Of a DNA stretch of 64,000 bases, positions 35,762 to 54,112 are shown piece after piece (the stretch's first letter is position 1; every line of letters begins with the position of its first letter). The stretch spans positions 62,001 to 126,000 of the forward strand of contig VLTN01000031.1 of the NCBI GenBank assembly GCA_008330645.1, read 5' to 3'. Below the pieces are notes generated by a model. It did no database searches. It was not told the origin of the DNA and saw nothing but the letters and a program-made list of their open reading frames with translations. Origin of the DNA: Cafeteria roenbergensis (taxonomy: Eukaryota; Sar; Bigyra; Bicosoecida; Cafeteriaceae). Position numbers and translations under genes: made by a program.

Positions 35762-36343
35762 GGCGTGCTGCCGAGCAGTGCAGCGCAACCACCAAGCGGG
35801 CTCCGTTTTCTCGGCGTCACAGCGGCGAATGAATGCAGAGAGCAAACGTTGGCGCTCAAGTGCATGCCGCCGTGATGCCGTCTCTGCTGCAATAATGTTC
35901 GCAGCACCACACGCTTGATTGGCCTTGAGTGAGCATTTCGGAAACTTTATACACGAGTCAAGCAGTGGTGCGGGCCGCTCCGCTCGCAGGGCTGCGCTTG
36001 CACCTGCGCGCGCGCGCGCCCTGGACGCCCATCTGCAGGCCGCGCGGCGCTGGGACCGCGGCCCTTGCACGCGGGATCGCCGCGCTCGCCTCCCGCCGCA
36101 GCCGGCGCGGTGAGCGGCGGGCTGCACGGGTTGAAGCAGAGCTCGAATCCTGCATTTGCTTGCGGTTGCTGTCTCGCGAACGGCACTGCAAACACTCCAG
36201 CCGGCGCACACCAGGGCCGGGATCCCCGGGCCCGGGCCTCGCTTGTTCCCCCCCCGCCGCATCGCGCGCGGTGTGCAGCTCGCCGGCCTCCGCGAGGGCG
36301 ACCCGAGCGGCCGGCAGCCGCGCCCCCGACGGTGCCGGAAGCC
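35762..36343. other. upstream region of F-box-like gene copy A
   Basis: About 580 bases without a supported gene. From about 35961 it matches the region upstream of copy B from about 49600, so the duplication includes the putative promoter. Confidence 0.55.
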
Positions 36344-38970
36344 ATGCCGAGCCGCAGCACGAGCCGGGCCCTCGCTGCCAGCGCGGGCGCTCCAGGCGCG
36401 TCGTTTCTGAGGGTGTGGGGGTGCCGGTCCGACCGCCGGCGCATCCTGTCGTTTCTGGGCCCCGATGGCGCCGTGCTGGCTCGGGTGAACCGCCGGTTGG
36501 GGGCCGACCTGGAGTCGAGTGGGTTCTGGCGCGAGCGGTTCTTGGACACCTTCTTCAGCCCCGCCGAGGCGGCTGTGGTGCGTGCGGAGCTGGAGGAGTG
36601 CGAGGCGGACGCCGTCGACGAGCGCGACCGTGCTGGGGTCCCGGCAGGTGGTGTGGCTGCGGCGGGGGCTGCGTCGGCGGGAGGCGCCGCGATGGCAGCG
36701 ACCAGCCGGCGGGGCCAGGCGCTTGCGCGTTTGCGTCGCGGTCCCGGGGGGCGCGCTGCTCTAGGCCCGGGCGGTGCCATGCCGCCCGCTATGCTGGTGG
36801 AGCTGAGTGCGTGGGAGGCTTGTGGGGAGGCGGCCGCAGGCGAGCCACCGCCACGGCGGGATGTGTCTGGACTTTTCCGGGCTGCGCTGTCGTGGGTCGT
36901 CCGGCTTTGGCGCGATGCACTCGACGATAGGGCAGCCGCTTTCGACCGCCTGGTGGAGGCAGCCCGAGTGCTGGCTCCGGCCCTCCCAGCGGTGCTGAGG
37001 GAGCCAGCCTGGAAGCTGGGTCTGCAGGACGACGACAGGGCGTTGCTCGCGGAGGTCGTGGAGGAGCTGGCGGGCTATCCAGACGCTGCAAGCGCTCGTG
37101 GGGTGGTGGACCGACGCGCCAGAGCAATGCTGCATGTCGTTGCTCAAGCACATCGAGCCATGTGGGCAGGCTGCCCTGGCGCTTGGGGGATCGCCGCAGC
37201 TTGGTGCCGGGTGCTCGAGCCAGTGTGGCCAGCGGTCCAGGCGGTGCGTGAGCGCCAAGGCCGAGGTCGTCTGGGGGTGTTGCCCGACCCGGGAGCGCTT
37301 GAGGCGGTGCTTGCACGATTTGTCGCTGCCGATGACGGCCCGTTGGAGCGGGCGACGGCGTGGCTTGCGGATGCGCCGTCTTGGACCCAGGAGGAGGGGC
37401 GATGCGGATTGCACGCAGCCGTGCAGATGGCGGCTGATGAGGTGGTGATGGGCGTCCTACCGCTGATCAGGCAGCCGCGGCTGTTCGACTCGAGCTACAT
37501 TGGCGCCTCGTCGGCGCGGGAACGCGACGCCGCGCTCAAGGCGTGCTTCCGGGAGCTCAGCGGCGACCGCCGTGTGCGTCGCGGACCGGTGAGCGGGTAT
37601 GGGACGGCGGGCATCGCATATGCAGCCTATCGGGCGCTGGACGACCGGCCCAACCCGTACCGGTTGCTGGGCGCAGCTCTGGGCGCGGCAGTGCGGCGAC
37701 AGCAGTCAGACCTCAAAGTAGCAGGTGAGCTCAGCCGCTCGATGCCGCCGGCTCGGCGTATTGTGTGGTCGAAGCGAGCGTGCATCGTCATGTTCGTGGC
37801 CATGGTGCTCTTGACCGCGGCTCAGTGGAGTGTCCTCTGGAAATGGCGAGCTGCGTGTGCGCTGCGCGTGTCGGAGGCCTTCCCGGCCGGCTCCGACCCA
37901 GCCATGGCGGCCGCGTGGCTATGCCCGCTGGGTCTGGCCTCCGATGCAGAGGAGAAGGCACTCGGCTTCAGCTGCGACCTGCTGCTGCCGACCACGCCCC
38001 CGTCGCTGGCCGGCAACGCATCGAGCTTCGCCGTCAACGCCGCTGCTTTGAGCTATGCCGTGTGCGGACGATTCGCTTCGATCAGGTCGCGGCCCGAGGT
38101 GGAGGCGGCATTCCGAAGCGACTACGGCTGGATGCTGTTGCTTGCGTTCATCGTGGCGTTGTTGCATGTCGTGGCCTTCACAGCATGGGCGTGGGCGGCA
38201 TTGTCGGCGCGGTGCACGGGGCGGCCGAGTCTGTGCTCGCTTCGGCTGCTGTTGTTGCTCCAAGACACGCTGCTGCCGCCCTTGGTGCCGCTGCCGGCCA
38301 GCTTGCGCCTCGTGGTGGGGCGATCGTGGCACGTGCTGCATGCGCTGACGTGGACCTTCGTGTCGCCGGCGCTCGCGGTGGGCCTGGCGCAGGGCCAGTC
38401 CTACGACGACCACGGCGTGTGCTCGGCTCTGGCCGCGGCGGTGGCCGTTGTGAGCGCAGGCATGGCCGTGTACGTGATGCCGTGGGGGAGAGTGCCCGGG
38501 TGTCGGCGCGGCGTGGCGAAGCGGGATGGAGCGAACAACAAAAACGATGTGCTTGCCGCTGTCGTGGTTGCATCGCTCATCGCCGAGTCGGCGTGCTTCG
38601 CGTGCTGGTCGGGGCAGTTGTTGGAGTGCTGGGGGTGTGGCGCGGGCGCCTCGCGACGCCACGCTCCTGCGTGAGGTGTCGTGCGACTCCGGGTGGTGGG
38701 TTGGTCTGCAGTGCTGGTTGATCCTGTGGGTTCTGGTTCCGGCGCTGTGGCTGGACACTTGGTTTGTGGTGCAGTGGCTTCGCGACTCCTTGCAAACCGG
38801 CGGACACGCTTTGGCCTTTGTCGTGCCGGCGATGTCTCCTCTGGGTTCAGCGGTTGGGCTGGTGCTCATCAGTGAGCCGCCGGTCGGCCTCGATGGCGGC
38901 AGTCTCGGTTTCCAAGCTGTTGACGCCATCACCATTCTGCTGATTGCGACCCTTGCTGCTACTCAGCTGA
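36344..38970 (+). pseudogene. F-box-like multi-span membrane protein, copy A (disrupted host gene)
   Basis: ATG 36344 begins MPSRSTSRALAA, as in copy B. An F-box-like segment follows (RILSFLGPDGAVLARVNRRL, then FWRERFL), a helical middle, and several membrane spans, closely similar to copy B to nt about 38635. There a 14-base stretch present in B is missing from A, shifting the frame; the first frame then stops at 38674. Sequence homologous to B continues in the other frame to the element junction at 38970. The last 40 or so codons lie beyond the element at 47346-47482. Copy A therefore carries two independent lesions and is probably non-functional, unless a shortened 776-residue product is used. 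Which lesion came first cannot be told. Confidence 0.8.
38964..38970. repeat. left flanking CAGCTGA (candidate target-site duplication)
   Basis: CAGCTGA abuts the left terminal inverted repeat and recurs at 47346-47352 next to the right one. The uninterrupted copy B has TTCAGCTTGAC at the matching point. The duplicated unit may be 5 (GCTGA), 6 or 7 bases, since the repeat end and the target blend. Confidence 0.65.
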
Positions 38971-39035
38971 TGTTATAGTTTAGTATATTGCTGTGATATT
39001 CAGCGCCGGGGAAATGTGTGTGGCTAGTACTATAC
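38971..39035 (+). repeat. left terminal inverted repeat
   Basis: About 65 bases that match the reverse complement of 47282-47345 with a few differences, sharing TATTGCTGTGATATTCAGCG and GTGTGTGGCTAGTACTATAC. It contains the first of four copies of a 29-base terminal motif (38986-39014). Confidence 0.88.
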
Positions 39036-39100
39036 TGGAAATGATCGAAATCTAGGGCTGCTGTACAACTTGGTTCGCATCGAAACGCTACCGCTAAACC

Positions 39101-39973
39101 TTGCGAGCGCATGTGGCTCTGCTTTCTACGGCAGAGCTGCACCTCGCCGATCATCAATCGTTTTGCGCCCTCCGAGAAGCGAGCGCACCCGGTGCTCAAG
39201 CCCACGTGGGCTTCCCGGGCGACCGTGGACCCCGCGGTGGCCGCGGCCACAGCGCCGTGTCCCGGGCTGGGTCCCTGCTTACCCGCCAGTCCCCGGGCTC
39301 TCGCAGCGACCTGACGCCGCGAGCGCAGGCCAGAGTCCTCAAACGCAGGCCCTTTCTCGTCGTGGAACTCCAAGTCTTCGAGAAGATGTCCAAATCGTGG
39401 GAGCGCCTCCTCTTCGATACCGACCCCTCTTCCCCACAGTACAATCCCACAGCCATGGGAGCCGCAGCCGCCATCGAGAGGCTCATGGCCGAGCGCCGGT
39501 CCCCCTCCGAGCCTCACTGGCGAAAGCGGGATGGCACGCACGTCGTTCCTTCCGATCTGGTGGCCGCCCTCCAGGCGGCCAACCCTCACCTGCGCATGTG
39601 CCGCAGTACTCCGCACAGCTTCCGAATCTCGGCTGCTAGCTGGCTTGTGAACCAAGCCCGCGTCAGCCGGGAGCGTGTCGCGGCCCTTGGCCGCTGGCAC
39701 GACCCGAAATCTCTTGACACCTACATCCGAGTGAACACCGTCGTCCCGGAATTCACCCGACTGGATCGCTCTGCGATGCCCTGGTCTATGGAATGGGATG
39801 GCTCGGAGGGCGACCCTGGCGGTCCCCGCCGAGCCGAATCTTTTGCCACTAGGTCAGCATCGGCGATTCTCGCCTCCACTCTGCCAACCAGAAACAAGAC
39901 AGCAACACACACTTTGCCCCCCGGTGAATATCACAGCAATAAAGACAGCAAGCCTAAGGAGGCTGAATATTGA
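39101..39973 (+). pseudogene. tyrosine recombinase, C-terminal part (element fossil)
   Basis: The readable part carries the catalytic end of a eukaryotic tyrosine recombinase. PHSFRISAASWL (about nt 39615-39650) supplies the HxxR motif, and LGRWHDPKSLDTYIR (about 39688-39732) supplies the second His/Trp position and the nucleophile Tyr. This family (HSFRIGAAT and LGRW types) occurs in DIRS and Crypton-like elements and performs site-specific strand exchange. The expected N-terminal half is not evident, so the gene looks partial and broken. It is present only at the left end of the element; the right end lacks the equivalent segment of about 0.87 kb. Confidence 0.72.
39913..39941 (-). repeat. 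terminal motif, inner left copy
   Basis: The second of four copies of the 29-base motif (TATTGCTGTGATATTCA followed by a G/C block and AAA, read on the minus strand). With the copy at 38986-39014 it brackets the recombinase segment as inverted ends. Confidence 0.85.
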
Positions 39974-40268
39974 GCTGAACGAATGACAATACATCCAGTC
40001 AAAGGGATTCCACATCCCGCGACAAGAACAGGCGGTGACGATGCGGACCAGACAGAGGAGGGCGCCCTCTTCGCTGCAGAGCGGGGGAAAGCTCTGCCCA
40101 ACGAGCGCGCGCGCAATCAGCACACCGGACGCAGGAACTCTCCCGTCCGCAGCGGGAAACTCAGCGGCACGGCACTCGCCTGCCCTGATCAGTTATCCCA
40201 CAGGGAATCAGCGACTCCGCATTCCCGCCGCGTTTGTGTGACGCGCGCTTAAGCTTTTGTTTCTACAC

Positions 40269-40709
40269 ATGGCAGCGGCAGCCCGAGCGAATGATGCGAC
40301 GGGTCCCGACGTGGACTCGGACACGTGGATGGCGTTCCGAAGCGCGGTCCCGGGCCTCCCGACCTCTTGGGCCACGTTTGCGGAACAGGCTTTATACATT
40401 GACCTCTATCCGCGTATGTCGGGGGAGACGGCGTGTGGCAGACGGGGCTCGATTAGAGCCCCACAGCACGGCGAGCAGAGCCGAAGCGGCTCTGCCCGAG
40501 GGCTGGGAGGGTGGGAGAAACGATCACTCAACGGCACACGGAGCGCGTTGGGGCCGATGCTGGGTGCGTACCCGAGCAAGGTGGCCCGGTCGGCGGCTCG
40601 CGGGCCGGCGGAAGCTGGCAGAGCGCGTCCCACGATGTATGGGTGCGGGCAAATATGTACACGTCAAGGTCAAACTACCGACCCTACGGTCAAATCCATT
40701 TCTCTATAG
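40269..40709 (+). CDS. small arm protein 1 (146 residues, uncertain)
   Basis: ATG 40269 opens a frame whose first 55 residues look protein-like (DVDSDTWMAFRSAVPGLPTS, ALYIDLYPRMSGET). The remainder is Arg/Gly-rich and crosses two short DNA hairpins at about 40443-40500, so the true 3' end may differ. An identical mirror copy lies at 46477-46917. No family recognised. Confidence 0.3.
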   Translation: MAAAARANDATGPDVDSDTWMAFRSAVPGLPTSWATFAEQALYIDLYPRMSGETACGRRGSIRAPQHGEQSRSGSARGLGGWEKRSLNGTRSALGPMLGAYPSKVARSAARGPAEAGRARPTMYGCGQICTRQGQTTDPTVKSISL

Positions 40710-41670
40710 TAAAATGTATTATCCAAGACAGCGTACAAAACACACCACGGCTTTTGGTGAAGTTGCCAAAACTTCAGTGGGTACTGCGGGTGGGGAAATT
40801 AGCGGGACTGCGGGAAAAGAGGAGTCTGGGGTTTTGTGTGTACACTACCTGTTTGTCTTATTGTTATACACACATTCTGGGGCGCGGCTGGGGGCTAAAC
40901 AGTATTCGTTTGTTGCAAAAAGTCATCGGGCACTTGTTTTTCCGTGCTCTCCAGTGATTTTTCAGGGAGTTGCGCTGGAAGTATGGGGTACCCCCCATGG
41001 GATTCTTACAATTTATGTGATTTGTTGCTCTACAGTGCGCTTTCGGGAAATAAGAGATGGTGCCCGGCAATCCCATTTCCTCTATAGAGGAAAAAATGGG
41101 ATTGTGTGTATAGGGATTTCGGGGTCTCGGTGACTTCCCGGAAACTTCAGCGGGTACCACGGGCTAAAGATTTTGGAGGCGGCGTAATTGCTGCATTTGG
41201 GGGTTTTGTGTGCATATTTTTGTTCCACTAATGCTATACACACGCTTTGTGGCTGCGGTTGGGTGGGATAAACGTTTATCCGAGACAGCATTGCAAAATT
41301 AACTATGGTTCCAAATAGTGGTGATTGGATTCAAAGTTTGAGATCAGAGTTATTAGTGGTTGTGTGTGTATAGCATTAGTGGGAGTGTCTTGGTTTACAC
41401 ATTTCCTCTATAGTAAAATGGGTAAACCAAGACAGCATCCCTAAGTTCTCTCCAGTTTTTGGCCAGTCTCCGCAAACTTCAGCGGGGGCTATAGGCTAAA
41501 GATGAGGACAACCGCGTATTGGGGGATTTTGGAGGCTTTGTGTGTGCAGCAAAACTTTCTGCAAATGCTATACATTGTGACTAATCGTATTTCCATGGAA
41601 CCTCGGCAACGACATTTTCCTCAATAGTACAATGGGACTGCCAAGACAGCAGCCCTAATCTCGACCCCGT
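40690..41670 (+). repeat. degenerate tandem repeats in left arm
   Basis: Diverged units recur with shared landmarks: TTTCCTCTATAG (about 40700, 41088, 41402, 41612), GACAGC (about 40728, 41284, 41430, 41654), AAACTTCAGCGGG (about 40769, 41143, 41474) and AATGCTATACA (about 41231, 41567). Spacing of the AACTTCAG landmark is about 373 and 332 bases. Several units contain short palindromes such as TCCTCTATAGAGGA and ATAAACGTTTAT. Confidence 0.65.
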
Positions 41671-42199
41671 TTGCGTTGGGGTTCTGAAAGTCGCAATAGG
41701 GAACTGCGGGTTGGCGACTGGGAAGACCGTGAAATATGTGGGATTTTGCGACATTGTGTGTTGCTTGAATCAAACGGCACGAATCAAACCCGAACTATGA
41801 CTTGACTATGGGAGGGGTATTGCGACCCCTTGGACACTCCGAGACGTCCGAGACGTCGTGCGGGTGCATGACCCGTCCCATTGGACGTAATCGTGCGAAT
41901 TCGAACGATAGGGTCGTTTTGCGTGTGGAGTTTTCGTATAATCATGCGAATTCTTCTGTTTTGCCGTTGATTGAAAACACTTGCAGACGATATTGTTTGT
42001 TGGTAGGGAAATATAGCGGTCGAACAAACGCGATTCCCCCTCTGCTCCTCCCCGCCCGCAGCCCGAGCCGGCGAGCTGAGATACCTGGATTCGACGCTTG
42101 CTAACCTTGCTGGCATCCAAGTCTTCGAACAATGCGTGACTGAAGCCCCTGTGCGACACAGCAGTGACGTTATTCAACAGCACCAAATGCTCTGACAAC

Positions 42200-42430
42200 A
42201 TGAGCTCCGTTGTACCCTTCGTCGTCACGCCCACGGAGCGCATGGGACCGGAGGCGTTTGCTTTCCTCAAGAAGGTGGCGGACACGGCTTTTGGCGATGA
42301 GCCAAGGGAGCGTGCGCGCTGGGCCTTCCGGTGGCTGTCCAAGCAGAACGAGGTGATCGCCAAGGGGCTGGCGACGCAGCTCATCTGGCAGACGGAGCAC
42401 TTGCGGCGGCAGGTGGAGCGTTTGCGGTGA
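42200..42430 (+). CDS. small arm protein 2 (76 residues)
   Basis: ATG 42200 starts a compact, protein-like frame: MSSVVPFVVTPTERMGPEAF, then FAFLKKVADTAFGD, then RWAFRWLSKQNEVIAKGLAT, ending LRRQVERLR. Composition and codon use look coding, and an almost identical mirror copy lies at 44757-44987. Its short VxPFVV...GPEA...FL pattern recalls the extreme C-terminus of some non-LTR retrotransposon proteins, so it may be a captured LINE 3' end rather than an independent gene. That comparison is from memory and weak. Confidence 0.45.
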   Translation: MSSVVPFVVTPTERMGPEAFAFLKKVADTAFGDEPRERARWAFRWLSKQNEVIAKGLATQLIWQTEHLRRQVERLR

Positions 42431-42673
42431 GCGTGTGGTGGTGGATGGACTTGGAGTGGGACTGGGTAATTGGGCTGCTGGGTTGATGGGTCTGCGGGTC
42501 TGCGGGATTGGGATTTGGGTTTTGCTGGTTTGCGCGTTCTGTGACTCTGCGGGGATGGTTTGCTGGACCTCTGAGTGATGGCTTTGATGAGGCTTTGATT
42601 TGACTGTGTGGAATGCTGACATTGAGTCTTCATCCCCCCCAATGATGCTGAGAACCTGTATCTACGTTTGACC

Positions 42674-42753
42674 GCCATTCCGCGTAGCCAGCCATTCCGC
42701 GTAGCCAGCCATTCCGCGTAGCCAGCCATTCCGCGTAGCCAGCCATTCCGCGT
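42674..42753 (+). repeat. 17-base minisatellite
   Basis: Four full and one partial direct copies of GCCATTCCGCGTAGCCA, head to tail, just inside the inner end of the left arm. There is no counterpart beside the right arm, so it belongs to the unpaired centre. Confidence 0.92.
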
Positions 42754-42825
42754 GCTGCGCTTCGAGGCACTCGGCGTGGCCCAGCAGTGGCCTTGCCGCA
42801 CGTGCGCGAATCCGCACCACTCGAG

Positions 42826-44259
42826 ATGCTCATGGGAGTGCTGACAGCATTCGGTCACCGAATTCAAGGCGTCGTGTTGACCTCAGCGGTTACTATTGTG
42901 ATCGCTGCAGCATATACGGCCACGTTTGAAGTATTGGTCTCACCCTGCAGAAGCTTGAATGCAGACGCGACATCTCTTGACGTTCTTGGTCGTTGTGGCG
43001 TGAATGTCAGCACCTCGACTGACTTCACTCGAGACCTTGGGTCGTCATCGACAGTTCTGTATCCAGAGTATTTGGACACCGTGCTTATCTACAGCCTCTT
43101 GCCTGTGTTTGCAGCTGCAATTCTGGACACCTATTTCGCGTGGTTTTCTTCAGTATATCATGTGGTGGGATGCTTCACGTGCGAATGCTGTTTCCTCTGT
43201 GTCTGCCGAAGACAGTCGAGCTGGCCGGAGCTTGTCAGGACTACATTCTCTCCACAGGCATGGGACGGGCGGGGACTTCAGTGGTATATTTGCACGCGCG
43301 ATGAGCACTGCTGCTTCTGTCCGTGCTTCAGGTGGTTCCGTGTCCTCAGGGCAGTGATGGCGCTATTCTCTAATGCCATGTCGGGCTTGGGGACTGTTCT
43401 CCTTCTTCAATGGACTTCTGCCAGGTCACTTACCAGAAAGGATGGATCCGACGCTGTTCCTGACGGCTTGGAGAATGCAGCTATAATCGTCCTTGGTGTG
43501 AGCGGCGGCCTGCTGCTTGCTAGACTCGTGCTGAGCGTAACATCAGCAACTGCTCCTATTCCTACATCTCCTCTTGGTAGTGACGAAGACATCTCTGCCA
43601 GGGACGACCTCCATGAAATGTTCAAGAGCTCGAGCAGTCCGCCCCTCTGCCTTGCAGCACCGTCGTTTCTGGTGAATCTTGCCACAAATCAAGCTCCAAG
43701 CACACCGCAAGGCTTTCGAGTGCAGAGAGCAATGAACAAGACGACGGACGGACTTGCAATCGAACGTGTCCTTATGGCGGCAGGGGGTGCGATGGCGATG
43801 GCGGCGGCGGCGGCGGAATGCGTGGAAACGGCGAATGCGGCGAAGAAGGCGGCGGCGAATGCGGCGTCACGTGCCCAGGAGCTTGCTTTGCACTTGGATA
43901 TAACTGCAGATAAGGAGAAAAAGACCACGGCCGATGCACAGGCCGACAAGGCTAAGGAGGCAGCCAACAAGGCTAAATGGGCGGCCGACAAGGCGAAAAA
44001 GGCGGCCGACAAGGCGAAAAAGGCGGCCGACGAGGCGGCAGCCGCAAGGAAGGCGGCAGTGAAAGCAACAAGGGAGGCAGAAACACAGGAGGGCGCGGCG
44101 AAAGCAAAGAAGGTTATGGCGGCGAAAATGAAGAGTTTGGAGGAGGACATGGCAAACAATGCGGCCAGGACAGCAGCAACTGCAGCGCAAGCCTCGGCCG
44201 CCGCAGCGTTCGCGGAGGCGGCAAAAGCAAGGACTGTGCGGGTGGCCATGGAGGCTTGA
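42826..44259 (+). CDS. element cargo: four-span membrane protein with Ala/Lys coiled-coil tail
   Basis: ATG 42826 gives 477 residues. An in-frame GTG lies further 5', but the ATG is preferred. Hydrophobic segments: VVLTSAVTIVIAAAYTATFE, VLIYSLLPVFAAAILDTYFA, VMALFSNAMSGLGTVLLLQW and AAIIVLGVSGGLLLARLVLS. Between spans two and three lies a Cys cluster (CFTCECCFLCVC, then CCFCPCF), suggesting a palmitoylated or metal-binding loop. From about residue 320 the chain is a long Ala/Lys/Glu helix with tandem ADKAKKA heptad-like repeats, a likely coiled coil. Codon use is much less GC-rich than the host genes. I recognise no family. It sits alone in the unpaired centre of the palindrome, so it is cargo rather than mobility machinery. 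A GC hairpin at about 44352-44381 lies downstream. Confidence 0.7.
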   Translation: MLMGVLTAFGHRIQGVVLTSAVTIVIAAAYTATFEVLVSPCRSLNADATSLDVLGRCGVNVSTSTDFTRDLGSSSTVLYPEYLDTVLIYSLLPVFAAAILDTYFAWFSSVYHVVGCFTCECCFLCVCRRQSSWPELVRTTFSPQAWDGRGLQWYICTRDEHCCFCPCFRWFRVLRAVMALFSNAMSGLGTVLLLQWTSARSLTRKDGSDAVPDGLENAAIIVLGVSGGLLLARLVLSVTSATAPIPTSPLGSDEDISARDDLHEMFKSSSSPPLCLAAPSFLVNLATNQAPSTPQGFRVQRAMNKTTDGLAIERVLMAAGGAMAMAAAAAECVETANAAKKAAANAASRAQELALHLDITADKEKKTTADAQADKAKEAANKAKWAADKAKKAADKAKKAADEAAAARKAAVKATREAETQEGAAKAKKVMAAKMKSLEEDMANNAARTAATAAQASAAAAFAEAAKARTVRVAMEA

Positions 44260-44756
44260 CCGTCGGACGCAGGCCCACAACTTGGGCATCGCTAGGTTCA
44301 GCAAAGGCTGAGGCCACTCTATATAGAGCTCAAGCGTGGTGTGGTTGATCAGGCCGGGAGGCTTTGTGCTCCCGCCTGGCCACCTTCATCGTTGGGTGAT
44401 GGCTGAGGTTTGTTTTTCAGGTTCTTCCTCAGTTTGAATACCGAACCTGCAACCACGCACAGGGTCCTTATTGACAGAGGGTTATGAGGCATGGTATGTC
44501 AGAACTCTAGGTTTCGTAAGACTACGGTCAGGCTCTCAATATCGTTGGGGGGGGCGAAGGCTCAATGTCAGCATTCCACACAGTCAAATCAAAGCCTCAT
44601 CAAAGCCATCACTCAGAGGTCCAGCAAACCATCCCCGCAGAGTCACAGAACGCGCAAACCAGCAAAACCCAAATCCCAATCCCGCAGACCCGCAGACCCA
44701 TCAACCCAGCAGCCCAATTACCCAGTCCCACTCCAAGTCCATCCACCACCACACGC

Positions 44757-44987
44757 TCACCGCAAACGCTCCACCTGCCGCCGCAAGTGCTCCGTCTGCC
44801 CGATCAGCTGCGTCGCCAGCCCCTTGGCGATCACCTCGTTCTGCTTGGACAGCCACCGGAAGGCCCAGCGCGCACGCTCCCTTGGCTCATCGCCAAAAGC
44901 CGTGTCCGCCACCTTCTTGAGGAAAGCAAACGCCTCCGGTCCCATGCGCTCCGTGGGCGTGACGACGAAGGGTACAACGGAGCTCAT
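44757..44987 (-). CDS. small arm protein 2, mirror copy
   Basis: Mirror image of the 76-residue frame at 42200-42430. I noted one amino-acid difference (Gly for Trp within QLIxQTEHL). Confidence 0.45.
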   Translation of the reverse strand: MSSVVPFVVTPTERMGPEAFAFLKKVADTAFGDEPRERARWAFRWLSKQNEVIAKGLATQLIGQTEHLRRQVERLR

Positions 44988-45515
44988 GTTGTCAGAGCAT
45001 TTGGTGCTGTTGAATAACGTCACTGCTGTGTCGCACAGGGGCTTCAGTCACGCATTGTTCGAAGACTTGGATGCCAGCAAGGTTAGCAAGCGTCGAATCC
45101 AGGTATCTCAGCTCGCCGGCTCGGGCTGCGGGCGGGGAGGAGCAGAGGGGGAATCGCGTTTGTTCGACCGCTATATTTCCCTACCAACGAACAATATCGT
45201 CTGCAAGTGTTTTCAATCAACGGCAAAACAGAAGAATTCGCATGATTATACGAAAACTCCACACGCAAAACGACCCTATCGTTCGAATTCGCACGATTAC
45301 GTCCAATGGGACGGGTCATGCACCCGCACGACGTCTCGGACGTCTCGGAGTGTCCAAGGGGTCGCAATACCCCTCCCATAGTCAAGTCATAGTTCGGGTT
45401 TGATTCGTGCCGTTTGATTCAAGCAACACACAATGTCGCAAAATCCCACATATTTCACGGTCTTCCCAGTCGCCAACCCGCAGTTCCCTATTGCGACTTT
45501 CAGAACCCCAACGCA

Positions 45516-46496
45516 AACGGGGTCGAGATTAGGGCTGCTGTCTTGGCAGTCCCATTGTACTATTGAGGAAAATGTCGTTGCCGAGGTTCCATGGAAATAC
45601 GATTAGTCACAATGTATAGCATTTGCAGAAAGTTTTGCTGCACACACAAAGCCTCCAAAATCCCCCAATACGCGGTTGTCCTCATCTTTAGCCTATAGCC
45701 CCCGCTGAAGTTTGCGGAGACTGGCCAAAAACTGGAGAGAACTTAGGGATGCTGTCTTGGTTTACCCATTTACTATAGAGGAAATGTGTAAACCAAGACA
45801 CTCCCACTAATGCTATACACACACAACCACTAATAACTCTGATCTCAAACTTTGAATCCAATCACCACTATTTGGAACCATAGTTAATTTTGCAATGCTG
45901 TCTCGGATAAACGTTTATCCCACCCAACCGCAGCCACAAAGCGTGTGTATAGCATTAGTGGAACAAAAATATGCACACAAAACCCCCAAATGCAGCAATT
46001 ACGCCGCCTCCAAAATCTTTAGCCCGTGGTACCCGCTGAAGTTTCCGGGAAGTCACCGAGACCCCGAAATCCCTATACACACAATCCCATTTTTTCCTCT
46101 ATAGAGGAAATGGGATTGCCGGGCACCATCTCTTATTTCCCGAAAGCGCACTGTAGAGCAACAAATCACATAAATTGTAAGAATCCCATGGGGGGTACCC
46201 CATACTTCCAGCGCAACTCCCTGAAAAATCACTGGAGAGCACGGAAAAACAAGTGCCCGATGACTTTTTGCAACAAACGAATACTGTTTAGCCCCCAGCC
46301 GCGCCCCAGAATGTGTGTATAACAATAAGACAAAAAGGTAGTGTACACACAAAACCCCAGACTCCTCTTTTCCCGCAGTCCCGCTAATTTCCCCACCCGC
46401 AGTACCCACTGAAGTTTTGGCAACTTCACCAAAAGCCGTGGTGTGTTTTGTACGCTGTCTTGGATAATACATTTTACTATAGAGAAATGGATTTGA
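45516..46496 (-). repeat. degenerate tandem repeats in right arm
   Basis: Mirror copy of the repeat run at about 40690-41670, with the same landmark words in reverse complement. Confidence 0.65.
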
Positions 46497-46917
46497 CCGT
46501 AGGGTCGGTAGTTTGACCTTGACGTGTACATATTTGCCCGCACCCATACATCGTGGGACGCGCTCTGCCAGCTTCCGCCGGCCCGCGAGCCGCCGACCGG
46601 GCCACCTTGCTCGGGTACGCACCCAGCATCGGCCCCAACGCGCTCCGTGTGCCGTTGAGTGATCGTTTCTCCCACCCTCCCAGCCCTCGGGCAGAGCCGC
46701 TTCGGCTCTGCTCGCCGTGCTGTGGGGCTCTAATCGAGCCCCGTCTGCCACACGCCGTCTCCCCCGACATACGCGGATAGAGGTCAATGTATAAAGCCTG
46801 TTCCGCAAACGTGGCCCAAGAGGTCGGGAGGCCCGGGACCGCGCTTCGGAACGCCATCCACGTGTCCGAGTCCACGTCGGGACCCGTCGCATCATTCGCT
46901 CGGGCTGCCGCTGCCAT
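46477..46917 (-). CDS. small arm protein 1, mirror copy (uncertain)
   Basis: Mirror image of the 146-residue frame at 40269-40709, with the same doubts about its 3' half. Confidence 0.3.
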   Translation of the reverse strand: MAAAARANDATGPDVDSDTWMAFRSAVPGLPTSWATFAEQALYIDLYPRMSGETACGRRGSIRAPQHGEQSRSGSARGLGGWEKRSLNGTRSALGPMLGAYPSKVARSAARGPAEAGRARPTMYGCGQICTRQGQTTDPTVKSISL

Positions 46918-47244
46918 GTGTAGAAACAAAAGCTTAAGCGCGCGTCACACAAACGCGGCGGGAATGCGGAGTCGCTGATTCCCTGTGGGATAACTGATCA
47001 GGGCAGGCGAGTGCCGTGCCGCTGAGTTTCCCGCTGCGGACGGGAGAGTTCCTGCGTCCGGTGTGCTGATTGCGCGCGCGCTCGTTGGGCAGAGCTTTCC
47101 CCCGCTCTGCAGCGAAGAGGGCGCCCTCCTCTGTCTGGTCCGCATCGTCACCGCCTGTTCTTGTCGCGGGATGTGGAATCCCTTTGACTGGATGTATTGT
47201 CATTCGTTCAGCTCAATATTCAGCCTCCTTAGGCTTGCTGTCTT

Positions 47245-47273
47245 TATTGCTGTGATATTCACCGGGGGGCAAA
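47245..47273 (+). repeat. terminal motif, inner right copy
   Basis: The third of four copies of the 29-base terminal motif. Only about 30 bases separate it from the fourth (47304-47332), whereas the two left copies are about 0.9 kb apart around the recombinase segment. Confidence 0.85.
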
Positions 47274-47281
47274 ATGAGTGT

Positions 47282-47345
47282 GTATAGTACTAGCCACACA
47301 CATTTTGCCCGGCGCTGAATATCACAGCAATATACAAAACTACAA
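47282..47345 (-). repeat. right terminal inverted repeat
   Basis: Partner of 38971-39035. It carries the fourth terminal motif (47304-47332) and ends next to the second CAGCTGA. Confidence 0.88.
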
Positions 47346-47482
47346 CAGCTGAACTCATCGTGTGCACCATTCGTGGCGAGCGCGTCCTCCGGCGCATCGA
47401 GCCCCAGCATGGCTTCCGAGGATTCGTCACCGCCCACGAAGCGCGTGCCGCCCTGCGCGCGGTTCAGCGCCGAACCTGCTGA
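47346..47482 (+). pseudogene. severed 3' end of F-box-like gene copy A
   Basis: Starting with the second CAGCTGA (47346-47352), this stretch encodes VLRRIEPQHGFRGFVTAHEA and RAVQRRTC before a stop at 47480-47482. It matches the last residues of copy B (VLRRIQPSHGFRGFVTAHEA, RAVQRRTC). It is the tail cut from the gene body at 38970 by the element. Confidence 0.85.
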
Positions 47483-47732
47483 TCCCCCCAGCGGGACGTG
47501 CCCGCCTCGCCCGCCCGCGTGGACTCGGCAGCTTCGCTCTCGCATCAGCAGCAGCATCGTTTGCGTGCCGCGTGCAGCTTCGACCCAACCGCGGCTCATC
47601 CGCCCCGCCGTGCGCAAGCCACTGCGCGCGTGTGCGTGCCATCGCTCGCTGCGCCTGGGCCCCGAGCCGCTGGCAAGGCCACCTGCGCCACCCTGCAACG
47701 ACCGACACACACACGCACCACTCTGCCGCGCA

Positions 47733-49521
47733 TCAGCGCCGCTCGCTGCCCCGGGACGCGGACCTCGCCGGCGCTCGCCGCGCGCTCGAGTCGCGGCGCC
47801 GGGCCCGCTGACCAGCGCCGCTGCGGCCGCGCCCCGGGCCGCGCGCGCCCTCGGCTGCGCCCGCTCCTCGCCTCGGGCCACCGTCGCTCCGCCGCTGCGC
47901 GACCGCTCGGACCGCGTCCTCGGCCAGCGCACGGGTGTCCGACACGAACGCGTCGCCGCCCCCCGGCCCCAGAACACGCCTTGCCGCCCCACGCAGGGCC
48001 TCCCACGCGCACGCCGGCAGCCCGCGCTCCGCGGCGCGCGCCGAGCCCCGGCCCCGCAGCGCCCCCGACGGCAGCCGCCCGGCCACCAGGCTCACGCCCC
48101 GCACCATCGCCTGCCGGGCGCCCTGCAGCGCCTCCTCCGCAGCCCCGCCCGGCCCCGCCGCCGAGGCCGCCTCCGTCGCGCCGCCCGCCAGCGGCTCGCC
48201 CTCTGCCGGCGAGCGACGCCCCGCTGCCAGCGCGGCCTCGGCTGCCGCCGCGTGAGCCGACACCGCCTCCCCAAGCGCCGCCGGGGACGCCAGCGGGACG
48301 GTGGCTCGCACTCGCCTCGTCAGCCGCATGGCCTCGCCGGCGCCCCTCGCCGACAGCGCAGCGACCCGGTCCACGGACGACGCGTCGCCGCGGAGCCGCG
48401 CGCCCTCCAGGGCGGCAACCACCCGACACAGCCGTTGGCTCCGTCACGGCGAACACGCCCGGCCACCCGCCACACACGCCCTCGCCGCGCCCCTCCACCG
48501 GCGCCGAGCCGCCCGTCGACCCGTGCCGCGACGCCCCAGCGCCCAGCAGCCGCGCCAGCATCTTGGCCCCGTGCCCCGCCTCTGCCCGCTCCGCCCGCAC
48601 AAGCTCCGCGCACGTCAAGGGCCCCACGCACACGCGGCGGGACAGCTCGGCTGCCCTCCGGCCCAGGCCCTCGCCACCGGACGCCGCGCCGGCGCCAGCG
48701 GGGCCACCGCCGCCACCGGCTGGGCGGAGCGGCAGCGCGGCCTGCACCAGCGCGCCGGCCAGCCCCGCCAGCTCCGCCCCACGCCCGCCTGCGCCCGCGG
48801 CGTCGGATGCGCCGCGATCGACCAAGCCGACCACATCGTCGAGCATCCGCACGACGTCGGCAGGGTCCGCCCCCCGCGTCGACGCCGCGACGGCGCAGCC
48901 GAGCGCCGCCTGCACACCGCGCCACGCTGACACGGCCGGCGCGGCGCCGCCGCCGGAGGGCGCCCGGGCTCCAGCCGCGGCAGAGCCCCACGCCGCCGCA
49001 AGCAGAGCCGCCGCCGCGTCCGGAACAGGGTCCAGCGGCGCGGCAGAGCCGGCGGCGTCCGCGGACATGACCCACTCGCGCAGCGTGCGCGTCAGGCCCA
49101 CCGCCAGGCCGGCGCCCGCGTCCCTCGGCAGAGCTGCCACCTGCCGCAGGAGCCACCGCGGCACCGCGAGCCCTCGGCGCCCGGGCGCGCCACGGCCGCG
49201 GCCGCTCGGCGCAGCAGCGGGAGGCGCGCGCTGGCGGGCTGCACGGCCGAGATTGCCGCCAGGAGGGGCTTCCACGCCGCATCGACGCACGATGCCTCGG
49301 CCGATGCGAGCGCATGCTAGGACTGCGGCCTTTGCAGCCGGGAGTGAGGGGCCTGGGCCGCCCGCCGCCTTCGGGAGCGGGCCGTGCAGCCCCTCGGACC
49401 GGGCCTGCACGCGGCCGGGCTGGAGCGGCCGGCGAACTGCCGGGGCCACGCTCGGGGCGGCCGGCGCTCCCACGCACGCGCGGCTCGCCACTCGGCACCC
49501 TAAGGCCCGCGCCGCCGGCAC
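47733..49521 (-). pseudogene. Ala-rich helical protein gene, copy A (disrupted)
   Basis: Reading right to left, homology with copy B shows one coding line: RRAAELSRRVCVGPLTCAEL, GHGAKMLARLLGAGAS, then VVAALEGARLRGDASSVDRV, ending RGLPACAWEALRGAARRVLG and DAFVSDTRALAEDAVRAV, with a stop at 47733 shared with copy B. Near 48411 an extra base relative to B breaks the frame. No ATG opens the 5' part, and two competing frames are visible at 49100-49320, so the start is unresolved. Composition suggests a helical, soluble protein. I do not recognise it. It converges on the tail of the F-box-like gene. Confidence 0.5.
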
Positions 49522-49991
49522 GCATGCACTCCCCGTCGCGCCACAAGCGAGCCCCCCGCCTCCTCTCGGCGCCGCGGGACGCTCGACACGTCACGTGCCC
49601 AAGCAGTGGTGCGGGCCGCTCCGCTTGCAGGGCTGCGCTCCCACCTGCGCGCGACAGCGCGGGCTGGACGCCCATCCGCCGGCCGCGCGGCGCTGGGACC
49701 GCGGCCCTCGCACGCCCGGACGCCCCTAGAGCCGGGCGGGGCGGCGGCTCGCCATCGCGGCTGTGATCGCCGCGGGCCGTCCTGCGCCATCGCTCCGACA
49801 GAGCTCGCTGGCGGTTGCTGTCTCGCAAACGGCACAGCAAACACTCCAGACGGCGCACACCAGGGCCGGGATCCCCGGGCCCGGGCCTCGCTTGCCTCCC
49901 CTCGCCGCATCGCATGCAGTGTGCAGCTCGCCGGCCTCCGCGAGGGCGACCCGAGCGGCCGGCAGCCGCGCCCCCGACGGTGCCGGAAGCC

Positions 49992-52751
49992 ATGCCGAGC
50001 CGCAGCACGAGCCGGGCCCTCGCTGCCAGGGCGGGCGCGCCAGGCGCGTCGTTTCTGAGGGTGTGGGGGTGCCGGTCCGACCGCCAGCGCATCCTGTCGT
50101 TTCTGGGCCCCGACGGCGCCGTGCTGGCTCGGGTGAACCGCCGGCTGGGGGCCGACCTGGAGTCGAGTGGGTTCTGGCGCGAGCGGTTCTTGGACACCTT
50201 CTTCAGCCCCGCCGAGGCGGCTGTGGTGCGTGCGGAGCTGGAGGAGTGCGAGGCGGACGCGGTCGACGAGTGCGACCGTGCTGGGGGCCCGGCAGGTGCG
50301 GTGGCTGCGGCGGGGGCTGCGTCGGCGGGAGGCGCCGCGATGGCAGCGACCAGCCGGCGGGGCCAGGCGCTTGCGCGTTTGCGTCGCAGTCCCGGTGCGC
50401 GCGCTGCTCTAGGCCCGGGCGGTGCCATGCCGCCCGCTCTGCTGGTGGAGCTGAGCGCGTGGGAGGCTTGCGGGGAGGCGGCCGCAGGCGAGCCTCTGCC
50501 ACGGCGAGATGCGCTTGATCACTTTGACGATGCGCTGTGGTGGGTCGTCTGGCAATGTCGTGATGCAATCAGCCATACGTCAGACGCTTTCGACCACCTG
50601 GTGGAGGCAGCCCGAGCATTTGCTCCGGCCCTCCCAGCGGTGCTGAGGGAGCCAGCCTGGAAGCTGGGTCTGCAGGACGACGACATGGCGTTGCTCGCGG
50701 AGGTCGTGGAGGAGCTGGCGGGGTGTCCGGACGCTGCAAGCGCTCGTGGGGTGGTGGACCGACGCTCCAGAGCAATGCTGCATGTCGTTGCACAAGCTTT
50801 TCGAGCCACGCGGGCAGATTGCCCAGGCGCTTGGGGGATCGCCGCGGCTTGGTGCCGGGTGCTCGAGCCAGTGTGGCCAGCGGTCCAGGCGGTGCATGAG
50901 CGCCAAGGCTGGTGGGGCCATCTGAGGACGGTGCCCGACCTGGGAGGGCTTGAGGCGGCGCTTGCACGGTTCGTCGCTGCCGATGACGGCCCGCTGGAGC
51001 GGGCGACGGCGTGGCTTGCGGATGCGCCGTCTTGGACCCAGGAGGAGGGGCGATGCGGATTGCACGCAGCCGTGCAGATGGCGGCTGATGAGGCAGTGAT
51101 GGGTGTCGACGGGGTGATCAGGCCAACGCGGGCGTTGGACTCGAGCTACATTGGCGCCTCAAAGGCGCGGGAACGCGACGCCGCGCTCAAGGCGTGCTTC
51201 CGGGAGCTCAGCGGCGGGCACCGTGAGCGTCGCGGACCGGTGGGCGGGTATGGGACGGCGGGCATCGCACATGCGGCCGACCGGCCCAACCCGTACCGGT
51301 TGCTGGGCGCTGCTCTGGGCGCGGCAGTGCGGCGACGGCAGTCAGACCTCGAAGTAGCAGGTGAGGTCAGCCGCTCGCTGCCGGCGGCTCGGCGCCTTGT
51401 GTGGTCGAAGCGAGCGTGCGTCATCATGTTCGCGGCCATGGCGGTCTTGCTCGTGGCTCAGTGGAGTGTCCTCTGGAAGTGGCGAGATGCGTGTGCGCTG
51501 CGCGTGTCGGAGGCCTTTCCGGCCGGATCCGACCCAGCCATGGCGGCCGCGTGGCTATGCCCTCTGGATCTGGCCTCCGATGCAGAGGAGGAGGCGCTGG
51601 GCTTCAGCTGCGACCTGCTGCTGCCGACCACGCCCCCGTCGCTGGCCGGCAATGCATCGAGCTTCGCCGTCAACAGCACCGCTTTGAGCCGTGCCGTGTG
51701 TGGACCGGATGCTTCGATCAAGTCGCGGCCCGAGGTGGAGGCGGCATTCCGAAGCGACTACGGCTGGATGCTGTTGCTTGCGTTCATCGTGGCGTTGTTG
51801 CATGTCGTGGCCTTCACATCATGGGCGTGGGCGGCATTGTCGGCGCGGTGCACGGGGCGGCCGAGTCTGTGCCCGCTTCGGCTGCTGCTGTTGCTCCAAG
51901 ACTCGCCGCTGCCGCCCTTGGTGCCGCTGCCGGCCAGCTTGCGCCTCGTGGTGGGGCGATCGTGGCACGTGCTGCATGCGCTGACGTGGACCTTCGTGTC
52001 GCCGGCGCTCGCGGTGGGCCTGGCGCAGGGCCAGTACTACGACGACCACGGCGTGTGCTCGGCTCTGGCCGCGGTGGTGGCCGTTGTGAGCGCAGGCATG
52101 GCCGTGTACGTGATGCCGTGGGGGCGAGTGCCCGGGTGTCGGCGCGGCGTGGCGAAGCGGGATGGAGCGGTCAATGATGCAATCGCCGTTGGCGTGGTTG
52201 CATCGCTCATCGCCGAGTCGGCGTGCTTCGCGTGCTGGTCGGGGCAGTTGTTGGAGTGCTGGGGGTCGACGTGGCTGGGTGTGGCGCGTGCGCCTCGCGA
52301 CGCCACGCTCGTGCGTGAGGTGTCGTGCGAGTCCGGGTGGTGGGTTGGGCTGCAGTGCTGGTTGATCCTGTGGGGTCTGGTTCCGGCGCTGTGGGCGGGC
52401 ACTGGCTTCGTGCTGCGAGACCGAACCCAGGACGACCGTGGTGGAGTCGCTTTCTTTGTTCTTTTCTGGGTCATGCCGGCGATGCCTCCTCTGGGCACAG
52501 CAGCTGGGGTTGTGCTGCTCAGTCAGCCGACGGTCGGCTTTGATGGCGGCGTTGTCTTTGTGACAATTGTTGACGTCATCACCATTCTGCTGATTGCGGC
52601 GTTGGCGTTGCTTCAGCTTGACTCTTCGCGTGAACCATTCGCTGGCGAGGCCGTCCTCCGGCGCATCCAGCCTTCCCATGGCTTTCGAGGATTCGTCACC
52701 GCCCACGAAGCGCGTGCCGCCCTGCGTGCGGTTCAGCGCCGAACCTGCTGA
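49992..52751 (+). CDS. F-box-like multi-span membrane protein, copy B (intact)
   Basis: A single exon of 919 residues from ATG 49992, preceded by 390 bases conserved with copy A. The N-terminal segment RILSFLGPDGAVLARVNRRL, then FWRERFL (about residues 33-70), resembles an F-box, the Skp1-binding part of ubiquitin ligases. A helical region of about 400 residues follows, then about eight hydrophobic spans, starting VIMFAAMAVLLVAQWSVLW, YGWMLLLAFIVALLHVVAF, LTWTFVSPALAVGLA and ALAAVVAVVSAGMAVYVM, and ending VIDV-like TIVDVITILLIAALALLQL. The loop after span one has several Cys and an NAS glycosylation site. The soluble C-terminus ends FRGFVTAHEARAALRAV. The F-box call is tentative; the membrane topology is clear. 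A membrane-anchored F-box protein is a reasonable but untested role. Confidence 0.75.
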   Translation: MPSRSTSRALAARAGAPGASFLRVWGCRSDRQRILSFLGPDGAVLARVNRRLGADLESSGFWRERFLDTFFSPAEAAVVRAELEECEADAVDECDRAGGPAGAVAAAGAASAGGAAMAATSRRGQALARLRRSPGARAALGPGGAMPPALLVELSAWEACGEAAAGEPLPRRDALDHFDDALWWVVWQCRDAISHTSDAFDHLVEAARAFAPALPAVLREPAWKLGLQDDDMALLAEVVEELAGCPDAASARGVVDRRSRAMLHVVAQAFRATRADCPGAWGIAAAWCRVLEPVWPAVQAVHERQGWWGHLRTVPDLGGLEAALARFVAADDGPLERATAWLADAPSWTQEEGRCGLHAAVQMAADEAVMGVDGVIRPTRALDSSYIGASKARERDAALKACFRELSGGHRERRGPVGGYGTAGIAHAADRPNPYRLLGAALGAAVRRRQSDLEVAGEVSRSLPAARRLVWSKRACVIMFAAMAVLLVAQWSVLWKWRDACALRVSEAFPAGSDPAMAAAWLCPLDLASDAEEEALGFSCDLLLPTTPPSLAGNASSFAVNSTALSRAVCGPDASIKSRPEVEAAFRSDYGWMLLLAFIVALLHVVAFTSWAWAALSARCTGRPSLCPLRLLLLLQDSPLPPLVPLPASLRLVVGRSWHVLHALTWTFVSPALAVGLAQGQYYDDHGVCSALAAVVAVVSAGMAVYVMPWGRVPGCRRGVAKRDGAVNDAIAVGVVASLIAESACFACWSGQLLECWGSTWLGVARAPRDATLVREVSCESGWWVGLQCWLILWGLVPALWAGTGFVLRDRTQDDRGGVAFFVLFWVMPAMPPLGTAAGVVLLSQPTVGFDGGVVFVTIVDVITILLIAALALLQLDSSREPFAGEAVLRRIQPSHGFRGFVTAHEARAALRAVQRRTC

Positions 52752-53005
52752 CCCATCCAGCGGGACGTGCCCGCCTCGCCCGCACGCGTGGACTCGGCAG
52801 CTTCGCTCTCGCATCGGCATCAGCATCGTTTACGTGCCGCGTGCAGCTTCGACCCAACCGCGGCTCACCCGCCCCGCCGTGCGCAGGCCACTGCGCGCGT
52901 GTGTGCGGGCTATCGCTCGCTGCGCCTGGGCCCCGAGCCGCTGGCAAGGCCACCTGCGCGACCCTGCAACGACCGACACACACACACGCACCACTCCGCC
53001 GCGCA

Positions 53006-54112
53006 TCAGCGCCGCTCGCCGCCCCGGGACGCGGACCTCGCCGGCGCTCGCCGCGCGCTGGAGTCGCGGCGCCGGGCCCGCTGACCAGCGCCGCTGCTGC
53101 CGCGCGCCGGGCCGCGCGCGCCCTCGGCTGCGCCCGCTCCTCGCCTCGGGCCACCGTCGCTCCGCCGCTGCGCGACCGATCGGACCGCGTCCTCGGCCAG
53201 CGCACGGGTGTCCGACACGAACGCGTCGCCGCCCCCCGGCCCCATAACACGCCTTGCCGCCCCACGCAGGGCCTCCCACGCTCGCAAGCCGGCAGCCCGC
53301 GCTCCGCCGCGCGCGCCGAGCCCCGGCCCCGCAGCGCCCCCGACGGCAGCCGCCCGACCACCAGGCCCACGCCCCGTTCCATCGCCTGCCGGGCGCCCTG
53401 CAGCGCCTCCTCCGCAGCCCCGCCCGGCCCCGCCGCCGAGGCCGCCTCCGTCGCGCCGCCCGCCAGCGGCTCGCCCTCTGCCGGCGAGCGACGCCCCGCT
53501 GCCAGCGCGGCCTCGGCTGCCGCCGCGTGAGCCGACACCGCCTTCCCAAGCGCCGCCGGGGACGCCAGCGGGACCGTGGCTCGCACGCGCCTCGTCAGCC
53601 GCATGGCCTCGCCGGCGTCCCTCGCCGACAGCGCAGCGACCCGGTCCACGGACGACGCGTCGCCGCGGAGCCGCGCGCCCTCCAGGGCGGCAACCACCGA
53701 CACAGCCGTTGGCTCCGTCACGGCGAACACGCCCGGCCACCCACGACACACGCCCTCGCCGCGCCCCTCCACCGGCGCCGAGCCGCCCGTCGACCCGTGC
53801 CGCGACGCCCCAGCGCCCAGCAGCCGCGCCAGCATCTTGGCCCCGTGCCCCGCCTCTGCCCGCTCCGCCCGCACAAGCTCCGCGCACGTCAAGGGCCCCA
53901 CGCACACGCGGCGGGACAGCTCGGCTGCCCTCCGGCCCAGGCCCTCGCCACCGGACGCCGAACGGGCGCAGCGTGCGAGTCAGGCCCACCGCCAGCCCGG
54001 CGCCCGCGTCCCCGCGGCAGAGCTGCCATCTGCCGCAGGAGCCACCGAGGGAGCGCGAGCCCTCGGGGCCCGGGCGCGCCACGGCCGCGGCCGCTCGGCG
54101 AAGCTGCGGCAC
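53006..54112 (-). pseudogene. Ala-rich helical protein gene, copy B (truncated and shifted)
   Basis: Homologous to 47733-49521. The 5' portion is removed by a deletion of about 400 bases, and near 53283 two extra bases relative to copy A break the frame just before AWEALRGAARRV. The central part (VVAALEGARLRGDASSVDRV and following) is intact in a second frame, and the terminal stop at 53006 is shared with A. The two copies carry different lesions, so neither encodes the whole inferred protein. Confidence 0.5.

Follow-up and report, generated by a model that had tools for sequence, protein, structure and literature searches.

An 8,377-bp palindromic element at positions 38971-47347 of a 64,000-nucleotide stretch of Cafeteria roenbergensis DNA (GenBank assembly GCA_008330645.1, contig VLTN01000031.1, forward-strand positions 62,001 to 126,000; hereafter the window) raises the question of whether its long mirrored arms, terminal repeats and recombinase gene belong to one undescribed kind of mobile element. 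An earlier note on the same DNA had read them so, as a tyrosine recombinase (YR) element in which outer repeats, a one-sided recombinase, arms and a central gene formed a nested design. The apparently undescribed design results from reading a nested insertion as part of one element: judged from its sequence, the locus very probably derives from an endogenous mavirus-like element (EMALE, a type of provirophage) and carries a passenger Ngaro retrotransposon in one arm. Coordinates are those of the window unless a contig is named (C1, C23 and so on), and genome searches covered the assembly to which the window belongs (36,303,456 bp, 167 contigs).

The architecture was established by BLAST of the window against itself (coordinates in Table 1). 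The two inverted arms were 99.49% identical over 2,754 columns, with 14 differing columns in a global alignment (13 substitutions and one gap), and the near-perfect 2.75-kb arms first described were thus borne out, as were the unpaired centre, put at about 1.86 kb and measured at 1,870 bp, and its single long open reading frame (ORF) of 490 aa. Outer inverted repeats, 93.9% identical over 66 columns, are present as had been claimed, but they are not separate structures: once an 869-bp insert in the left arm is skipped, the left side, like the right, shows outer repeat and arm as a single uninterrupted terminal inverted repeat (TIR). Measured from its terminus to 42626/44561, beyond which identity drops, this continuous TIR is identical in 2,777 of 2,788 columns. 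The TIR ends, which are the termini of the element, read TGTTRTAG..., and the pentanucleotide GCTGA flanks the element on both sides. Excluding the insert, GC content is 54.3%, against 70–74% in the window flanks.

The site of entry can be located because the host locus is tandemly duplicated within the window (35959-38948 matching 49600-52598 at 89%, and 47346-48700 matching 52614-53973 at 96%) and the second paralogue lacks the insertion. Alignment of the edges pinpointed the equivalent site to 52598-52614, across which a 978-aa open frame (49815-52751) runs. In the EMALE survey, TIRs are reported to have led now and then to problems in assembly (PMC8547959); an assembly or library hairpin artefact is nevertheless very unlikely here, as both flanks are collinear with the insertion-free paralogue, one arm holds an extra 869 bp and the arms differ at 14 columns. 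The tandem duplication itself carries long open frames, and since its left part is 89% and its right part 96% alike, the two parts may differ in history.

The recombinase DNA is confined to the 869-bp insert, which lies near the middle of the terminal hairpin of the left arm and has no counterpart in the right. This insert is an independent, internally deleted Ngaro retrotransposon and not the element's own recombinase. It consists of a direct repeat unit (A) fused, with a 6-bp overlap, to the 3' part of a YR gene, followed by a second repeat unit (B). A genome search with 38971-39971, in which the best 40 of 96 candidates were scored, returned 76 matches; in these, A and B (39036-39224 and 39808-39904) recurred at short distance from each other as a unit of ~360 bp, and the YR part was present in at least five longer copies. 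The 5' end TGGAAATG... was common to all 19 short solo copies examined, as was the start sequence TGGAAATGATCGAAA, and the 3' end AAGACAGCA was found in 17 of the 19; the ends of the window insert match those of the solo copies exactly. No target duplication was seen at the short copies on inspection by eye. A full-length relative of ~5.75 kb on C85 comprises A1 (97824-98012), a reverse transcriptase (RT) ORF (RVT_1, 4.6e-10, over the cut-off), a YR ORF (PF00589, 1.1e-4, below the Pfam cut-off), B1, A2 and B2. This is the split direct repeat layout A1-[ORFs]-B1A2B2, of which the window insert keeps one A, one B and a fragment of YR, with no RT.

Immediately beyond B2 of the C85 copy lies a tandem array with a period of ~700 bp (C85:89001-92263), one translated frame of which resembles ankyrin repeats. 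The C85 arrangement agrees with the published layout of Cafeteria Ngaro elements, including scattered solo AB repeats; relative to Ngaro (DIRS order) of Cafeteria burkhardae, the window insert is alike in its A repeat, B repeat and part of the YR gene, and differs in being internally deleted, in lacking RT and in joining A directly to the 3' part of YR (PMC8547959, available part).

The view that the locus is a tyrosine recombinase element whose arms serve as recombination substrates is consequently hard to credit. It can point to a YR-type ORF (39101-39973; PF00589 E=0.0022, below the Pfam cut-off; a profile search of the genome with PF00589 gave four matches, none over the cut-off), but this DNA has its own ends, shared with dispersed solo repeats, its full-length relative carries RT, and it is missing from the other arm. 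On these grounds YR was ruled out as the element's own enzyme, and neither the recombinase element nor the nested design of the earlier note was upheld. Since the window copy lies ~7 bp from the centre of a palindrome, the idea that Ngaro targets hairpin loops was put to a shuffle test and then dropped: none of the 17 of 19 solo copies with both flanks located scored above the best of its own 200 shuffles. The test is weak, because with offsets of <=8 allowed even the window junction fell within the shuffle range.

The affinity of the element itself was sought from its ends. The pattern TGTTRTAGTTTWGTATATTGCTG, built from the two ends, was found at 49 genomic sites with <=3 mismatches, and the reversed pattern at none; proviruses of this genome have TIR ends that match it with two or three mismatches. 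In 14 of 15 small pieces around such sites the terminus occurred in both directions, 88–133 bp apart, as a hairpin, and 13 of the 15 ran on beyond the hairpin into a match with the C1 TIR. A search with 40700-42190 recovered arm-like pieces in inverted pairs ~19–25 kb apart on C1, C23, C29 and C58. The C1 pair bounds a ~19-kb interval (C1:229814-248770) with TIRs of 833 columns at 99.2% identity, and 5-bp duplications were found on C1 (AGAGC) and C58 (AGACC). The integrase adjoining the C1 TIR matched rve_3 at 2.7e-7, over the cut-off, and rve at 1.5e-5, below it; a relative bears the name C. roenbergensis FNF28_07666 (99% identity, with 42% of the query covered). A 607-aa ORF of the C1 interval matched PDB entries 6g45 (9e-40) and 6g43 (5e-34), both 'putative major capsid protein', and a 351-aa ORF matched 6g41, 'minor capsid protein' (5e-33); Pfam gave a match to MCP_V20_C (2e-8) for the capsid ORFs. 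We take these three entries to be mavirus proteins, and on the strength of the capsid matches C1:229814-248770 is classed as a mavirus-like provirophage.

Four other interior ORFs of this interval were searched against Pfam, three of them also against PDB, giving no match for one, weak matches only for two and Peptidase_S74 for one; the last (C1:239751-240998, incomplete in the piece examined) bears this endosialidase chaperone domain at 9e-12. Among three further interior ORFs, two had no Pfam match and one had weak primase-like matches below the cut-off. A long ORF beside the C23 TIR, guessed to be a helicase, had no Pfam match. C29 gave no match to the terminus pattern; a provirus-like element of ~24 kb there has an inverted match between its ends of 1,694 columns at 96%, longer than on C1 or C58. 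This match may run into flanking DNA, and an extended inverted duplication may be present at this locus as well. In viral contigs, from which records near this genome may be excluded, the TIR pattern gave no match.

Both ends of the window element thus carry a terminus and subterminal hairpin like those of larger proviruses, one of them with capsid genes, and its 5-bp GCTGA duplication falls within the 3–5 bp that is usual for EMALEs. Published EMALEs have TIRs, target duplications mostly of 3–5 bp and Ngaro insertions (4 of 20 analysable sites in TIRs), and mavirus and 'MPEs' have duplications of 5–6 bp (PMC8547959, available part). If the ends merely resembled those of EMALEs, the locus could be a foldback-type DNA transposon unrelated to virophages, with which its long TIRs and the absence of any recognised virophage gene would agree. 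We regard this as improbable: the pattern taken from its two ends marks, at two or three mismatches, the TIR ends of proviruses elsewhere in the assembly, including the one with capsid genes, and a similar subterminal hairpin follows the terminus there.

From outside inwards, each arm consists of a terminal hairpin without its inner terminus, a fragment of another dispersed element (R2, apparently its 5' end), a 300-bp dispersed repeat (R3, probably a solo repeat), TIR-type pieces with short hairpins, and a further dispersed repeat. The search for copies of the arm scored the best 40 of 287 candidates, and within that scope R2 recurred at 90% on at least eight contigs, with a second, shorter copy 5.8–5.9 kb away on seven of the eight and 2.2 kb away on C22. 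Among the matches listed, R3 had copies at 97–98% on C107, C156 and C39 and at 84–89% on C42 and C8. Within the arm search as scoped above, and in searches with the centre, arm core and central ORF that scored all candidates, neither the palindrome nor its centre turned up a second time in the genome, so that the cargo-carrying family envisaged earlier found no support. On C110, of which 16 kb were examined, there is a one-sided, diverged relative of the arm without a mirror arm. It is flanked by a 318-bp direct repeat at 99.7% (C110:20426-20743 and 24414-24731), and inside the direct-repeat interval lies a 1.1-kb palindrome at 91% (23291-24417).

The 757 bp holding R2 and R3 (39943-40699) show no difference between the arms; both repeats therefore entered before the arms became alike. 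Ngaro, present in one arm only, presumably arrived after homogenisation. How the arms became alike is indicated by where they differ. With Ngaro skipped, the outer 74 columns of the TIR hold six of the 11 differences found between terminus and 42626, and the remaining 2,714 hold five (Fisher p=1.2e-7; 5.6e-6 without two differences beside the Ngaro junction), while the next 32 bp inward, the innermost, where homology ends, hold seven (p=1.1e-11); the cluster boundaries were picked after the differences had been seen, so these p-values are descriptive. The best account of this pattern would be a recent tract copied between two older edges. Because the differences cluster at both edges of the arm, gap repair or gene conversion is proposed, and conversion in place between the two ends is held here with moderate confidence; the suggestion already made that gene conversion kept the arms alike is likewise judged probable. 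Truncated EMALEs 'must have regenerated' their TIRs (PMC8547959, available part).

Given the same EMALE origin, the palindrome might instead have formed during virophage DNA replication, for example by a fork copying back from one end, and have been inserted as it stands through the integrase of a helper EMALE. Such an origin would fit the single clean 5-bp duplication, the intactness of both termini and the two TIRs kept by published truncated EMALEs (PMC8547959, available part). However, six differences in the outermost 74 columns against five in the 2,714 inside are not what one would expect had the whole arm been copied once, at an earlier time, and no second palindromic copy came to light in the searches with arm, arm core and centre described above. 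Formation during replication is a possible but doubtful alternative to conversion in place.

The centre is single-copy: besides itself it had four short matches in the genome (33–81 columns), three of them to a minisatellite. This minisatellite, with a 17-bp unit in 4.7 perfect copies, lies just inside the left arm (42674-42753) and recurs on C110 and, diverged, on C99. By chance, 490 open codons at the base composition of the central ORF would be expected at ~4e-9. The ORF has several transmembrane-like stretches and no Pfam match at E up to 1, and no relatives were found elsewhere in the genome, in viral contigs or in two protein searches (best 8,000 candidates scored in each). Its GC content at third positions (0.59) is near that of three provirus ORFs (0.48–0.57) and below that of two host ORFs (0.77–0.78); at second positions (0.52) it lies between provirus (0.37–0.42) and host (0.58–0.61), nearer the host.

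Table 1. Features of the palindromic element and its insertion site, in window coordinates
Feature	Coordinates	Strand	Basis or remark
Target site duplication GCTGA, left	38966..38970	.	Equals 47348-47352
Outer part of left TIR, first half of terminal hairpin	38971..39035	+	Terminus pattern genome-wide; inverted match to 47282-47347
Nested Ngaro (YR retrotransposon) fragment, internally deleted	39036..39904	+	A repeat 39036-39224, 3' part of YR gene, B repeat 39808-39904
Left arm, extended TIR	39905..42658	+	99.5% to 44529-47281
R2, fragment of another dispersed element, apparently 5' end	39943..40389	+	Mirrored at 46797-47243; 90% to copies
R3, 300-bp dispersed repeat, probably solo repeat	40400..40699	+	Mirrored at 46487-46786
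Arm core, EMALE TIR-type pieces with short hairpins	40700..42190	+	71–84% to TIRs on C1, C23, C58; C110 up to 87%
Dispersed repeat at inner edge of arm	42194..42650	+	Arm identity drops within last ~30 bp
Unpaired centre, single copy in genome	42659..44528	+	Genome search
Orphan 490-aa ORF	42787..44259	+	Hydrophobic stretches; Ala/Lys-rich C-terminal part
Right arm, extended TIR	44529..47281	-	Inverted match to left arm
Outer part of right TIR	47282..47347	-	Inverted match and terminus
Target site duplication GCTGA, right	47348..47352	.	Equals 38966-38970
Equivalent site without insertion, tandem paralogue	52598..52614	.	Window self-BLAST and edge alignment

These observations can be arranged into a tentative history. 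The element is best taken as a truncated, gene-poor derivative of an EMALE-type provirophage. TIR ends, duplication and filled and empty paralogues show that an insertion with a 5-bp duplication took place in one copy of the tandem host locus. To judge by its larger relatives, an rve integrase would have been the insertion enzyme. Virophage genes, none of which is now recognised, would have been lost. Retrotransposon debris (R2 and R3) would have entered one terminal region and then been copied to the other end, as its identity in both arms suggests, giving arms of 2.8 kb; gap-repair gene conversion between the two ends would be the likeliest copying step, with the terminal repeat as its outer anchor and the dispersed repeat as its inner one. 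The centre, with its one orphan ORF, would be what remained between the converted ends. The deleted Ngaro, which sits in the left arm only, was probably the last to arrive.

Several points weigh against this account. No virophage protein was recognised in the element by Pfam or by comparison of its peptides with the proviruses, and 10 further ORFs of arm and centre had no Pfam match at E up to 0.01. When 69 six-frame peptides from one arm and the centre were compared with 15 provirus pieces by tblastn, six had matches (60 rows), none of them in three pieces from the C1 interior. Where the TIR was mapped, at eight loci, all matches lay inside it; 22 of the 60 rows fell in four loci with an unmapped TIR, at corresponding places. 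The matches occur in several frames and on both strands, and therefore reflect DNA held in common, not coding held in common. No ORF had its best match to a mavirus protein in Pfam or among the interior provirus pieces compared, and neither an rve integrase nor an EMALE-type YR was found within the element, the sole recombinase DNA recognised by Pfam being the Ngaro fragment. Kinship rests on TIR DNA, whose pieces match at only 71–84% (at most 87% on C110) and are arranged differently. The GC content of 54.3% and TIR of 2.8 kb lie just beyond the ranges given for complete EMALEs (29.7–52.7% and 0.2–2.3 kb; PMC8547959, available part), and by these ranges we argue that the locus stands outside the 33 complete EMALEs published. 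Conversion, for its part, is deduced from few differences with boundaries chosen post hoc; fast mutation at hairpin ends could likewise cluster them, and the inner cluster sits at the limit of homology. The sequence of events is likewise reconstructed, and the centre could be either a leftover accessory gene or a captured host gene. As no virophage gene was recognised, the element is called EMALE-derived and is not counted as an EMALE as the literature uses that term.

By its own account, the EMALE survey could have overlooked elements in which no similarity to virophages is recognisable (PMC8547959, available part), and the locus is a candidate for such an element. Such elements might make up a class of gene-poor virophage satellites, short and non-autonomous, which would retain EMALE ends only, hold foreign or orphan genes within a pair of long homogenised arms and depend for their movement on the integrase of intact EMALEs, perhaps also being packaged by them; we consider this unlikely, and if true it would add one more level of parasitism to the chain of flagellate, giant virus, virophage and retrotransposon. 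Among the papers listed in literature searches, none evidently concerns a virophage or Polinton element that is poor in genes and has very long TIRs. What the sequence retains bears on the rebuilding of TIRs: both arms contain the same retrotransposon debris, and the differences between the arms gather at their two edges, of which one falls in a dispersed repeat. The locus also illustrates how easily a nested insertion is mistaken for a new element design.

Among known systems, foldback or long-TIR DNA transposons such as FB and Galileo have very long inverted arms that stay nearly identical, a likeness that the present element shares; it differs from them in that its ends resemble those of capsid-bearing proviruses and in its 5-bp duplication. 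Polintons/Mavericks insert by an integrase-type mechanism and have TIRs, and the element is like them in these respects, but no replication, integrase or capsid gene was recognised in it. The truncated EMALEs of C. burkhardae are alike in having provirus-type TIR ends, a 3–5 bp duplication, Ngaro in a TIR and a shortened body that keeps two TIRs (PMC8547959, available part). In contrast to them, the element has no recognised virophage gene, an orphan central ORF and retrotransposon debris doubled into both arms, and its TIR length and GC content exceed the published EMALE maxima of 2.3 kb and 52.7% (PMC8547959, available part). It is an extreme variant of the truncated-EMALE type, with longer TIRs and doubled retrotransposon debris, and not a new recombinase design.

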